Shown in pieces: positions 788 to 4,702 of a stretch of DNA of 64,000 nucleotides. The stretch covers positions 20,400-84,399 of the forward strand of contig NZ_AOIQ01000016.1 in the NCBI RefSeq assembly GCF_000337515.1, given 5' to 3'. Every line of letters begins with the position of its first letter. Position 1 is the first letter of the stretch. The notes below the pieces were generated by a model. The model made no database searches, was not told the origin of the DNA, and saw only the letters and a program-made list of their open reading frames with translations. The position numbers were made by a program, and so were the translations under genes. This DNA comes from Halovivax asiaticus JCM 14624. GTDB taxonomy: Archaea > Halobacteriota > Halobacteria > Halobacteriales > Natrialbaceae.

Positions 788-863
788 GCCAAGGTGGCAG
801 AGTCCGGCCGAACGCAGCGGCCTGCAGAGCCGCCCATCGCCGGTTCAAATCCGGCCCTTGGCT
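788..863 (+). tRNA. tRNA-Cys (anticodon GCA)
   Basis: The cloverleaf is complete. The acceptor stem is GCCAAGG/CCTTGGC, and the anticodon arm GCGGC-CTGCAGA-GCCGC carries anticodon GCA. The T arm is GCCGG-TTCAAAT-CCGGC and the discriminator base is T. No CCA is encoded, as usual in haloarchaea. The gene is 76 nt without an intron. Its 3' end is copied twice downstream (see the repeats at 864-1080). Confidence 0.95.
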
Positions 864-984
864 CTTCTGCGACGAACGGACGTGAGGAGCGAAAGCCATA
901 CGGACGGTTTGGACCCTGGAAGTCGCAACCGCGAGCGGAGCGAGCGGTCCGTCTTCCTCCGGTTCAAATCCGGCCGTGGCTTCT
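864..984 (+). repeat. tRNA-linked repeat unit 1 behind tRNA-Cys
   Basis: The unit runs from the tRNA-Cys 3' end to a second copy of that 3' end. It contains the 14-mer CGAACGGACGTGAG (873-886), an inverted T-loop-like GGTTTGGACC (906-915), AGTCGCA (921-927), and a GCGAGCGGAGCGAGCG tract. It ends with CCGGTTCAAATCCGG (959-973) plus CCGTGGCTTCT. The 14-mer and AGTCGCA occur at the same distances behind tRNA-Lys, so this is a defined unit and not chance. No coding sequence was recognised here. Confidence 0.7.
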
Positions 985-1080
985 TGCGCCGTGAGCAAAC
1001 TCGCGAGCGGCGCGAACCAGACGTGGATTTGAATCAGGGAGTGGAGCGGAATGACCGTGGTTCAAATCCGGCCGTGGCTG
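985..1080 (+). repeat. tRNA-linked repeat unit 2 behind tRNA-Cys
   Basis: This shorter, more decayed unit carries an inverted T-loop-like GTGGATTTGAATCA (1023-1036). It ends with a third copy of the tRNA-Cys 3' end, GGTTCAAATCCGGCCGTGGC (1059-1078). The AGTCGCA core is not recognisable. The following bases up to the convergent methyltransferase stop at 1129 hold nothing I can name. Confidence 0.6.
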
Positions 1081-1128
1081 TTCACGAACCACTGATTTAG
1101 GTGGGCTTGTACTCTCGCGTTGTCCGGG

Positions 1129-1830
1129 TCAGCTCGGCTCGGCCTCGATCGTGGTAATCACGCCGAGCATCGCGGTCGAGACGTTGGTGACCGACAGCTC
1201 CGCCCGAGAGACGTGCTCGAGTGGGTCCTGATTCCAGCGACAGCGGTGTTTTTCGAAGTGGGCGTTGGCCCGCCAGTCTTGCAGTCGTCCGAGCACCTCG
1301 ACGCTGCTGCGGCCGTGCTCTACGAGCAGCACTCGCCCGTCGGGGGCACAGACGCGATTCATCTCCCGGAGTGCAGCGACTGGATCGGGAACGGTACACG
1401 TCGAGAGCGAGGAGATGACCGTGTCGAAGCTGTCGTCTGGAAACGCGAGCGCCTCCGCGTCCATCTCCGCCACCTCGTGGTCATCATCGAACTGCTTCAC
1501 GCGTTCGCGAGCCCGTCGAACCATTGCGGGGCTGACGTCGATTCCGACGTACTCGACCGTCTCCGGGAGGTATCGGACGTTCGTCCCCGTCCCGCAGGCG
1601 ACGTCCAGCACGCGACCGCGGGCCGACTCGAAGTGACGGCGATACCGACCCAGGAGCAGCCGATCTGCCCACTCCATCCGGTCGAGCGCGTCGGCCTGCT
1701 CGTCGTAGGTCTCCCGGATCGCTGCGAGCGTCCCAGCGCGGTCCTGCCGGGCATCGGCCGCGTCTTCGTCGCCGGCCGTCGCCGCACCGGCGTCTGGCGT
1801 GGGCTCGGTGCCGGGGCTCGTTCCGTTCAT
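1129..1830 (-). CDS. Class I SAM-dependent methyltransferase
   Basis: This is a 233-residue Rossmann-fold methyltransferase. An acidic N-terminus of about 40 residues precedes motif I, VLDVACGTGTN (about 74-84). An acidic residue after strand 2 (VGIDVS, about 94-99) binds the SAM ribose, and motif post-II AFPDDSFDTVISS is at about 128-140. The layout resembles the UbiE/phospholipid methyltransferase group (Methyltransf_11), but the acceptor cannot be predicted. It is transcribed convergently with the tRNA-Cys repeat region and divergently from the YjiH gene, so it is probably a single-gene unit. Confidence 0.88.
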   Translation of the reverse strand: MNGTSPGTEPTPDAGAATAGDEDAADARQDRAGTLAAIRETYDEQADALDRMEWADRLLLGRYRRHFESARGRVLDVACGTGTNVRYLPETVEYVGIDVSPAMVRRARERVKQFDDDHEVAEMDAEALAFPDDSFDTVISSLSTCTVPDPVAALREMNRVCAPDGRVLLVEHGRSSVEVLGRLQDWRANAHFEKHRCRWNQDPLEHVSRAELSVTNVSTAMLGVITTIEAEPS

Positions 1831-2019
1831 AGGCGAAATTCGGGTCGCTCCTCCAAAGACTCACTGCTGGCTTCGGTGGCGGAGTCGTCCTCGCGGTGTT
1901 GCCGGGTCAACTCGGTTCTCTTCTAAACGGGCCGGTCGAGCGCTCACGATGCGCAATAATAAACCGGCCACCCCATGGCGGCGTTTCGTATAAGTTGTTT
2001 GGTACCACACCACTGCCGC

Positions 2020-3483
2020 ATGTTCGACGAACGTGTCTGGTCGAGTGAGGAGGAAACGGCGGAATCCGCCGAAGCGGCCCTGAAAACGAAAACGATCGGT
2101 GACGTCGACCTGTCAGTTATTCAGAGGAGGCCGGTTGCCAAGTTCCTTCTCGCGTTTCTGGTTGGGTTCGTCTTCTTCCTGGTTCCTGTCCCGTGGGACG
2201 GGCAGGTAACCGTCCCGTTCGATATCGTGGTCAGCTGGATCACGGAGTCGTTCCCGTCGGCAGCTGGCGTGTACGCCCTCGCGCTCATCATAGCGGGTGG
2301 GATCTTGACGACGCTCGCGGAGCTTGATAAACGCGGTCTCATACCCATGGGCGATGCGCTCGCCGACCGACTGGCACTCTCGTACTGGGAGACGTCGATC
2401 CCGTTTTGGTTCTTCCGCGTCGCTGGGGCCGCGCTCGCGCCGGTCCTGTTCCTCGATGTGGGGCCGGCCTGGCTCGTCGGACCGGCGACGGGCGGGCTCG
2501 TCTGGGGGACGCTCATTCTGAGTGTCGCCGTGATCATCCCGATCGGTGCGGTGTTCATCAACCTCTTCGTCGAACTCGGTGGGCTAGAATTCGTCGGCAC
2601 CCTCGCCCGCCTGATCATGCGCCCGCTGTTCAAGATTCCAGGCCGCGCGGCACTGGACAGCGTCGCGTCCTGGGTCGGTTCCTACAGTGTCGGGCTCTAC
2701 ATCACCCGAAACGTCTTCGATCGCGGTGAGTACTCGAAGCGGGACGTCTTCGTCATCTGCACGTGCTTCGCGACGGTGTCGATCGGCTTCGTCGGGGTCG
2801 TCGCTTCGACGCTCGACCTGCTCGATCTCTTTCCGGTCATCTTCCTCGCGTACCTCGTCTGCATCGCGATATCGGCGTTCATCCTCGTCCGAATCCCGCC
2901 GCTGAGTAACGTCCCCGACACGTACATCGCTACGCCGAACCCCGAGACGCCGTTCCATGGGTCGCCGGGGGACTACGTCCGATTTGGTCTGTCCGAGGCG
3001 GTCGAGAAGGCTGAGGAGGGCGGTTCTATCGTCGGCGCGCTGGTTCGCGGGTTCGTCGACGGGCTCAAACTGGCGGTGTTGATCCTCGGTACGATCCTCT
3101 CGATCGGGCTCGCCGCGGTCGTGATCGCCGAAAACACGCCCGTATTCGACGTTATCTCGACCCCTCTCGTGCCGATCATCGACCTCCTTGGAATTCCCGA
3201 CGCCGATCTCGTCGCCCCGGCGACGATCATCGGCATCACCGAGATGTTCATTCCCGCGTTGCTGGTGACCGAGGCCGCCGCGAAGGCGCGGTTCTTCATT
3301 GCGGTCCTCTCGATCTCGCAGCTCATCTTCTTCTCGGCGGTCGGGCCGATGATGATGGACATGTTCAGCGACATCCCGATTCGCTTTCGCGACCTCGTGG
3401 CGCTCTTCGTCATGCGAACGATCATTCTCGTCCCGCTCGTCGCGGCGATCACCCACCTCGTCGCAGCGCTCGGGTTGCTCTGA
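2020..3483 (+). CDS. YjiH family membrane protein (nucleoside-recognition/Gate domain)
   Basis: This 487-residue polytopic protein has about 10-11 hydrophobic segments. It resembles the YjiH family, whose Gate domains are shared with nucleoside transporters and spore-maturation proteins. The C-terminal half contains the conserved stretch APATIIGITEMFIPALLVTE (about 402-421), followed by a segment rich in Phe and Met. The first 40 residues are acidic and cytoplasmic. The ATG at 2020 was preferred over the upstream frame because a TATA-like CGTATAAG lies at about 1987-1994, giving a spacing of about 26 nt (leaderless). Substrate unknown. It stands alone, with no obvious operon partner. Confidence 0.8.
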   Translation: MFDERVWSSEEETAESAEAALKTKTIGDVDLSVIQRRPVAKFLLAFLVGFVFFLVPVPWDGQVTVPFDIVVSWITESFPSAAGVYALALIIAGGILTTLAELDKRGLIPMGDALADRLALSYWETSIPFWFFRVAGAALAPVLFLDVGPAWLVGPATGGLVWGTLILSVAVIIPIGAVFINLFVELGGLEFVGTLARLIMRPLFKIPGRAALDSVASWVGSYSVGLYITRNVFDRGEYSKRDVFVICTCFATVSIGFVGVVASTLDLLDLFPVIFLAYLVCIAISAFILVRIPPLSNVPDTYIATPNPETPFHGSPGDYVRFGLSEAVEKAEEGGSIVGALVRGFVDGLKLAVLILGTILSIGLAAVVIAENTPVFDVISTPLVPIIDLLGIPDADLVAPATIIGITEMFIPALLVTEAAAKARFFIAVLSISQLIFFSAVGPMMMDMFSDIPIRFRDLVALFVMRTIILVPLVAAITHLVAALGLL

Positions 3484-3630
3484 GTCGCTCCCCGATGTCG
3501 TGTGCGCATTGGACCGTTTGCCGGAGGGATTCGATTCTGGATCGATACCCAGCGGCCCATCCCCTTTGGAACGGCTACAAACCAGTTCACCCAGTCACCG
3601 CAGCCACAGCGACGAGCGTCGAGCCGTCGG

Positions 3631-4197
3631 TCAATCGAGCGAATCGTCGCGCCGTTCGGGCCTCCGGGCGATCACTCGCGTTCGGATCGCGTCGAGTCCT
3701 GGCTGTCCGTGCCCGTGCCAGAGTACAAGGGCGATGGCCGCGAGAACGAACTCGAGCAGGAAGTACGGGTCGCCGAGCGACCCCGCGAGGAGGTCGGCGA
3801 TCGTCGGGGCCCCTTCCTCGTACGGTTCGACGGCCGTCACCGGCCACAGGAGCATGCCGACCGACGTCTCTCGCCAGAGCGCGGGAACGATGTCCATGAC
3901 CGGGTGGGAGAGCATTCCGAGAACGAACGCGAATCCGACCTCCCGACGGCCGACGTGCCGGGCGAGTAGCAGGGCTCCGATAGCCAGGGGGACGAGAAAG
4001 AGAAACGAGTGGCCGAGCGACCGTCCCGTCGGTAACATCCCCAGATACCACGAGAGTGGTTTGTCGAGCAGGTCCGGCACCTGACTCCCGACGAGCACGG
4101 CGACCACCGGCGCTGCGGCTGGTGGCTCGAGCGCCCGCCCCCGACGGGACAGTGTATAGCAGAGGTACGCGACGGCGGCGTGTCCGAGTGGCCACAT
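3631..4197 (-). CDS. DUF457/YdjM-type membrane metal-dependent hydrolase family protein
   Basis: This 188-residue membrane protein begins MWPLGHAAVAYL. It has the family's histidine and aspartate positions: H6 near the N-terminus, SQVPDLLDKP (about 38-47), LGHSFLFL (about 61-68) and LSHPVMDI (about 95-102). These match the LexA-regulated YdjM/DUF457 group of putative membrane hydrolases. Four to five membrane helices are visible. The start at 4197 places the PLGH motif at the N-terminus as expected; the longer frame reads into the tRNA-Lys repeat units. Reaction unknown. Confidence 0.75.
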   Translation of the reverse strand: MWPLGHAAVAYLCYTLSRRGRALEPPAAAPVVAVLVGSQVPDLLDKPLSWYLGMLPTGRSLGHSFLFLVPLAIGALLLARHVGRREVGFAFVLGMLSHPVMDIVPALWRETSVGMLLWPVTAVEPYEEGAPTIADLLAGSLGDPYFLLEFVLAAIALVLWHGHGQPGLDAIRTRVIARRPERRDDSLD

Positions 4198-4313
4198 CCT
4201 GTCTGGGCCGACGGGCGACGCGTACTTAACCGACGTGACTCGGCTCACCAACCGCGGGCCAGCGACATCGGCTCCGATACCCGTCGCTCGTGAGATTACT
4301 CGCGACGTGAAAA

Positions 4314-4502
4314 CGGGCCGGGCGCGATTGTGAACAACGCCGAGACGGTCCTGCTCGCTTCGCTTCACTCACGGTTTCACCGTTCGTATCGCGGTTCTCA
4401 CTTCGTTCCGAACCGCGCTTCGCTCGGCTGTGCGGGCTGCGACTCGTCTACTTCAAATCGCTCATGGTCGCTTCGCTCCTCGCGTTTCGCTCGGAGCAGA
4501 AG
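4314..4502 (-). repeat. tRNA-linked repeat unit 2 behind tRNA-Lys
   Basis: On the minus strand this unit starts right after the second copy of the tRNA-Lys 3' end and closes with a third, slightly altered copy at 4314-4335 (GATTGTGAAC instead of GATTTGAAC on the plus strand). It contains an inverted T-loop-like GCGATTTGAAG (4461-4451), AGTCGCA (4444-4438, 59 nt after the previous copy) and tracts such as GAGCGAAGCG. No protein is recognised in it. The remaining 116 nt up to the DUF457 gene hold only its promoter region. Confidence 0.65.
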
Positions 4503-4628
4503 CGGGCCGGGCGCGATTTGAACCGAAACCAGACGTTCCTGCTCGGGCTATCGCCCTGCGCGGGCTGCGACTGGTAGGGCTCAAATCGCTCGTGGCGTTT
4601 TCACTGCTCACGTCCGTTCGCAGGAAAA
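4503..4628 (-). repeat. tRNA-linked repeat unit 1 behind tRNA-Lys
   Basis: On the minus strand this directly follows tRNA-Lys. It has CGAACGGACGTGAG at 4620-4607, identical to the 14-mer behind tRNA-Cys and the same 9-10 nt from the tRNA end. It then has an inverted T-loop-like GCGATTTGAGC, AGTCGCA at 4572-4566 (57 nt from the tRNA end, against 58 at tRNA-Cys), and a closing copy of the tRNA-Lys 3' end at 4523-4503. Confidence 0.72.

Positions 4629-4702
<74 letters not shown>

Follow-up and report, generated by a model that had tools for sequence, protein, structure and literature searches.

Tandem fold-back units closed by copies of the host tRNA 3′ end behind tRNA genes of haloarchaea

The genome of the haloarchaeon Halovivax asiaticus JCM 14624 carries, behind many of its tRNA genes, short tandem units that fold back on themselves and end in a copy of the 3′ sequence of the tRNA that they follow. 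Two such units behind tRNA-Cys(GCA) and two behind tRNA-Lys(TTT) lie in a 64-kb stretch of its 3.24-Mb, 24-contig assembly (64,000 nucleotides of contig NZ_AOIQ01000016.1, positions 20,400 to 84,399 of the forward strand; hereafter the window), and an initial annotation of the window had placed them with coordinates good to 1–2 bases. Each unit follows the plan X-[I-X′-II-X], where X denotes the last 21 nt of the host tRNA (G53 to the discriminator base), I a hairpin, X′ an inverted but imperfect copy of X, and II a structured tip that varies. We tentatively interpret the units as gene-less, integron-like fold-back cassettes that would be added at the tRNA 3′ end and reshuffled through X, a reading to which we give close to an even chance. 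The features of the two window arrays, numbered from the first nucleotide of the window, are:

788-863, plus strand: tRNA-Cys(GCA), anchor gene (ARAGORN, Rfam RF00005), with X (G53 to discriminator) at 843-863
864-981, plus strand: Cys unit 1, with module I hairpin 864-894, X′ 895-915, module II 916-961 and X copy 962-981
982-1079, plus strand: Cys unit 2, with module I hairpin 982-1016, X′ 1017-1033, module II 1034-1060 and X copy 1061-1079
4629-4702, minus strand: tRNA-Lys(TTT), anchor gene (ARAGORN, Rfam RF00005), with X at 4629-4649
4503-4628, minus strand: Lys unit 1, with module I hairpin 4597-4628, X′ 4578-4596, module II 4523-4577 and X copy 4503-4522
4314-4502, minus strand: Lys unit 2, with module I hairpin 4469-4502, X′ at about 4451-4468, an enlarged module II at about 4335-4450 and a decayed X copy 4314-4334
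4282-4313, minus strand: beyond the last X copy of the Lys array, remnant of a third module I, whose hairpin CGTCGCGAGTAATCTCACGAGCGACG spans 4282-4307

As had been proposed, all four window units are closed by the T-loop, the T-stem 3′ strand and the acceptor 3′ strand of their own tRNA, small indels aside (one base is missing from the Cys copies, and one is inserted in the distal Lys copy). Units are about 70-250 nt long, with a median of 123 nt and a range of 98-189 nt in the window. Identity between the first copy and the tRNA is 0.99 at G53, the base before the T-loop, and at least 0.94 from there to the discriminator. Two bases before G53 it has dropped to 0.34, and immediately past the discriminator it is 0.51; the plateau within X is partly due to how the copies were selected, but its edges are not. 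When copies in this genome were matched to tRNAs, the best match was the own host for 27 and a foreign tRNA for 1. X′ tracks the host as well, in that it pairs with its own tRNA's T-loop, T-stem strand and acceptor strand, with a mismatched stretch in between, and copy positions 13-14 are seldom paired (0.27 and 0.20 of units). The duplex energy of X′ with the tRNA, computed for the arm only, was −10.2 kcal/mol for the own tRNA and −8.4 kcal/mol with tRNAs swapped (permutation z −7.7); an earlier whole-arm test of the same tracking had given a weak signal (p 0.05).

The pairing is conserved in covarying form. Position 57 is A-T in 144 and G-C in 89 cases, against 42 with A-C or G-T, and the inner pair of a motif GA-RC-loop-GY-GA, which occurs in hairpin I and in many tips II, is A-T in 107 and G-C in 94 (201 of 213, the other 12 differing), all of these counts being raw with respect to the relatedness of the units. 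The units are thus defined by the GARC-loop-GYGA hairpin, by X′ as the inverted copy and by the 21-nt X. A second common module I loop type, of 5-6 nt and present at many loci, is AAN(N)TC(C), for example GAACAAATCCGTGA; it resembles a part of the T-arm (CAAATCC) and seems not to track the host tRNA.

The initial annotation had instead built its common framework on a shared 14-mer and on AGTCGCA at a fixed distance, and each of these turns out to be one variant among units. The 14-mer CGAACGGACGTGAG lies in module I of both first units, at 873-886 (plus strand) and 4607-4620 (minus strand), and is 9 nt past tRNA-Cys and 8 nt past tRNA-Lys rather than 9-10 nt past both. AGTCGCA does follow three of the four tRNA ends or copies, always within module II, at spacings of 57, 56 and 58 nt rather than 57-59 nt: in Cys unit 1 (921-927) and Lys unit 1 (4566-4572) these are counted from the preceding tRNA end and in Lys unit 2 (4438-4444) from the preceding X copy. 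Among the four window units examined it is missing from Cys unit 2, and the inverted T-loop motif, which the annotation had placed in the units with AGTCGCA, is found there too and so in four of four. Genome-wide, the 14-mer has four exact copies: the two in the window described above, another close to the Arg-GCG array and a last one in a hairpin away from tRNA genes. We regard it as one hairpin-I loop variant and not as a universal signature; AGTCGCA likewise marks one tip family, and TCGC is present in 99 of 278 units. The hairpin away from tRNA genes, GAGGTTC-GAACGGACGTGA-GAACCTC (locus L328 around 1493-1523; C17:169174), is free-standing, so the motif also exists outside tRNA arrays, and by eye its neighbour is an apparent seryl-tRNA synthetase gene.

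At least one unit was found behind 23 of the 41 parsed tRNA genes of the genome. A loose search pattern of two T-arms 80-150 nt apart had matches in 58 of 61 relatives, with as many as 28 in one genome, and a strict pattern that also required an inverted T-loop between the T-arms matched 77 of 81 genomes of the same order (haloarchaea, Halobacteriales) and none of the 312 other genomes of the phylum; the reversed patterns used as controls gave 0 in both searches. Recurrence beyond the two window loci had been named beforehand as decisive, and the architecture does recur, with 17 of the 19 strict matches in the own genome at tRNA genes. Chance recurrence is rejected by the reversed controls, which are zero or nearly so, and a misreading of neighbouring tRNA genes as units by the required inverted motif and by inspection of the sequences. 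A viral or mobile-element attP origin is likewise rejected: of 15 matches on viral contigs, a convincing unit was present in one alone (L277, an IMG/VR contig, at tRNA-Glu), which is probably a provirus edge plus host tRNA, and most of the others are tRNA clusters.

The farther a copy lies from its tRNA, the more it has decayed. The copy nearer to the tRNA was the better one in 43 adjacent pairs and the worse one in 8, and mean mismatches in three-unit arrays rise from 0.18 through 0.91 to 2.0 from the tRNA outward. Comparison with a sister genome (G003), whose flanks are about 95% identical to those of the own genome, revealed the gain or loss of precise units: behind tRNA-Cys the sister has one complete extra unit directly at the tRNA, the remainder being 95% identical, and behind tRNA-Glu(TTC) the own genome has one unit more. 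Unit order is swapped between the two genomes at Val-CAC, Ser-TGA and Ser-CGA, the Gly-CCC array of the own genome includes a recombinant unit, and at Ile-GAT and Lys-CTT the tip is the same in both and hairpin I is different. The tRNA-Cys units differ in the three other species of the genus, two-unit blocks have been duplicated (L311), and behind Glu-CTC in another genome (G001) there is an 86% match to one of the Glu-TTC units of the own genome, in which X and X′ are both fitted to Glu-CTC. The suggestion of a decayed attachment system finds no support in these patterns, since strong covariation, near-perfect proximal copies and array turnover between sister species argue that the system is live or was so recently. 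In the sister genome an rRNA operon ends in tRNA-Cys and its three units (23S, 5S, tRNA-Cys; L035).

On the reading that we favour, a cassette would consist of the module I hairpin and a long imperfect fold-back, X′-II-X, and new cassettes would be inserted directly behind the tRNA, so that the old tRNA end would become the newest cassette's X. Copies of X (or X′) would later recombine, and cassettes would thereby be deleted, duplicated and reordered and modules exchanged. The cassette would most likely be active as a folded single DNA strand and would then work in the manner of an integron, with the tRNA end in the place of attI and X′-II-X in the place of attC. The likeness may extend to an anchor site followed by cassettes that each close with an imperfect fold-back, made of two paired boxes, a spacer without pairing and a tip that varies, to lax sequence with conserved structure, to freshest cassettes beside the anchor and to changes of order (attC features as compared in PMC2727003). 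Unlike integrons, the window arrays have no integrase beside them and no cassette genes, and the units are archaeal and anchored on tRNA genes, with many anchors per genome. The integron R-box has the consensus GTTRRRY, from which X departs in starting GTTCRAA. Because of this departure and of the missing integrase, we describe a resemblance to the integron layout and claim no integron membership. More speculatively, a recombinase of the host that recognises single-stranded DNA in folded form could add, excise and reorder these gene-less hairpin cassettes at tRNA anchors in archaea, above all in haloarchaea, with their ends rewritten for each tRNA; we consider this fuller scheme possible, if somewhat doubtful.

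Several observations weigh against the cassette reading. Swaps and duplications (A-B-A′, A-B-A-B) could arise from homologous or repeat-mediated recombination alone, the freshness of proximal copies may be due in part to conversion by the tRNA gene, and the proximal extra Cys unit of the sister genome is compatible with gain or with loss. Fold z-scores of the window units on the tRNA strand are modest (−1.2 to −2.4) and show no consistent advantage over the opposite strand, the covariation counts take no account of relatedness, and of the four PF00589 hits in the own genome not one falls inside or close to the window arrays.

An alternative interpretation is that the units are RNA elements, transcribed behind the tRNA and acting as structured trailers or small RNAs, in which X′-X pairing would stop the copy from interfering with the tRNA, and the copies would serve as extra tRNase Z sites. 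Their strand-specific placement behind tRNAs, the exact end of the copies at the discriminator, which is the tRNase Z site, the strong covariation and a slight excess of G.T all accord with this, but we consider it unlikely. Isolated mismatches in unit helices comprise 114 G.T and 77 A.C, an excess well under that in the acceptor and T stems of real tRNAs at the same loci (149 G.T and 24 A.C; difference p 1e-8). The loops are also of a DNA type: GNA accounts for 51 of 69 triloops and GNAB or GNNA for 33 of 36 tetraloops, with no GNRA among them, and the stable DNA tetraloops include GNNA and GNAB (Nakano 2002, as cited in PMC8373063). Together the DNA-type loops and the low G.T excess point to folding of the units as DNA rather than RNA, and we caution that neither is proof, given that third-place purines are unaccountably absent from the GNNA loops and that the fold z-scores of the window units are modest. 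Further counts against an RNA element are that the T-loop is buried within a helix in the fold, that arrays are replaced, swapped or lost in sister species and that an Rfam 15 covariance-model search of the window arrays and ten loci matched the units to no family, by which identity with a known RNA family is rejected. A kink-turn or GNRA reading of the loops is rejected as well, there being no bulge and no GNRA.

Insertion guided by the unit itself would account for the fact that X and X′ both track the host and that copies are almost never foreign: I-X′-II would be inserted with X′ as a guide that pairs with an exposed tRNA 3′ end, and the 21-nt X would be a target-site duplication. We regard this as improbable, because no enzyme for it is known, X′ contains a conserved mismatched stretch and its acceptor pairing is often weak.

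Still less do we expect the units to be serial scars, each the footprint of an integrated element that had left an att copy behind, in arrays that then changed passively through unequal crossing-over and deletions between repeats. In favour of scars, haloarchaeal integrative elements usually insert at tRNA 3′ ends, deletions mediated by repeats have been documented in haloarchaea (PMC3119063), and in Haloferax gibbonsii partial tRNAs directly adjoin full copies (PMC7921747). However, a scar predicts neither X′, whose host tracking already weakens this account, nor paired modules and covariation, no remnants of an integrase are present in the window units, which at 98-189 nt are too short for an integrase gene, the size range of units in general is narrow around the median of 123 nt, and viral contigs yielded the one convincing unit given above. 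A conventional element was in fact found in the same genome at tRNA-Pro(TGG) (L341:3528-4625 = C17:199527-200624, with the tRNA at C17:182846-182918): it spans about 17.7 kb, has a 13-nt att core (CCGCGCGGTCCCA) and encodes a 340-codon tyrosine recombinase whose gene ends 75 bp before attR. The element sits between the tRNA and that tRNA's unit array, which lies behind attR, so the arrays are host features displaced by such elements and not their remains. This separation agrees with the initial annotation, which had set the units apart from ordinary att sites. Units share with elements that use a tyrosine integrase att the tRNA 3′ end as a target that is restored or duplicated on insertion, and differ in being about 70-250 nt long, tandem and integrase-free and in carrying an inverted copy of the target.

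The nearest parallel known to us is the rtT repeat of the Escherichia coli tyrT operon (RF00391), in which tandem units behind a tRNA gene each carry a copy of the tRNA 3′ end and from whose trailer rtT RNA has been proposed as a product; rtT is known from one locus and is not known to have an X′-X fold-back, whereas the present units occur genome-wide across an order and have no Rfam match. Bacterial REPs and haloarchaeal PATEs are likewise short, non-coding palindromic repeats with hairpin ends, but they are dispersed and are not known to be tied to tRNA ends or to carry an inverted target copy. In the open literature searched the units are undescribed, remarks on partial tRNAs and repeat-mediated deletion aside, and an earlier description in older papers is possible. 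The parts of the Haloferax gibbonsii report that we consulted remark on partial tRNAs beside full tRNAs and do not recognise them as repeated hairpin units (PMC7921747); they are probably the same units seen singly. The arrays appear to be a near-universal and hitherto undescribed feature behind the tRNA genes of a whole archaeal order and bear on how tRNA 3′ ends came to be the main landing sites of mobile DNA, on the recombination of single-stranded DNA in archaea and on the evolution of tRNA genes, and the order includes genetically tractable organisms such as Haloferax, which makes these proposals directly testable.

In a scan of 84,980 species genomes, the matches listed were mostly from haloarchaea, and convincing units outside them, among the same matches, came from a Methanomassiliicoccales genome (L186) and a Woesearchaeota contig (L188), with L164 and L177 as possible cases. 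L188, L177 (Woesearchaeota) and L164, from a metagenome-assembled genome labelled as a bacterium, are single units behind tRNA genes with host-matching X and X′, for which transfer and deep ancestry are both possible. The Methanomassiliicoccales unit, at tRNA-Ser, and three loci of genome G429 (L295, L299 and L300) belong to a different archaeal class, three Methanomassiliicoccales genomes having been covered; the units at these loci are AT-rich and follow the same tRNA-hairpin-X′-II-X plan, with the loop GAGCGAAGCGA.
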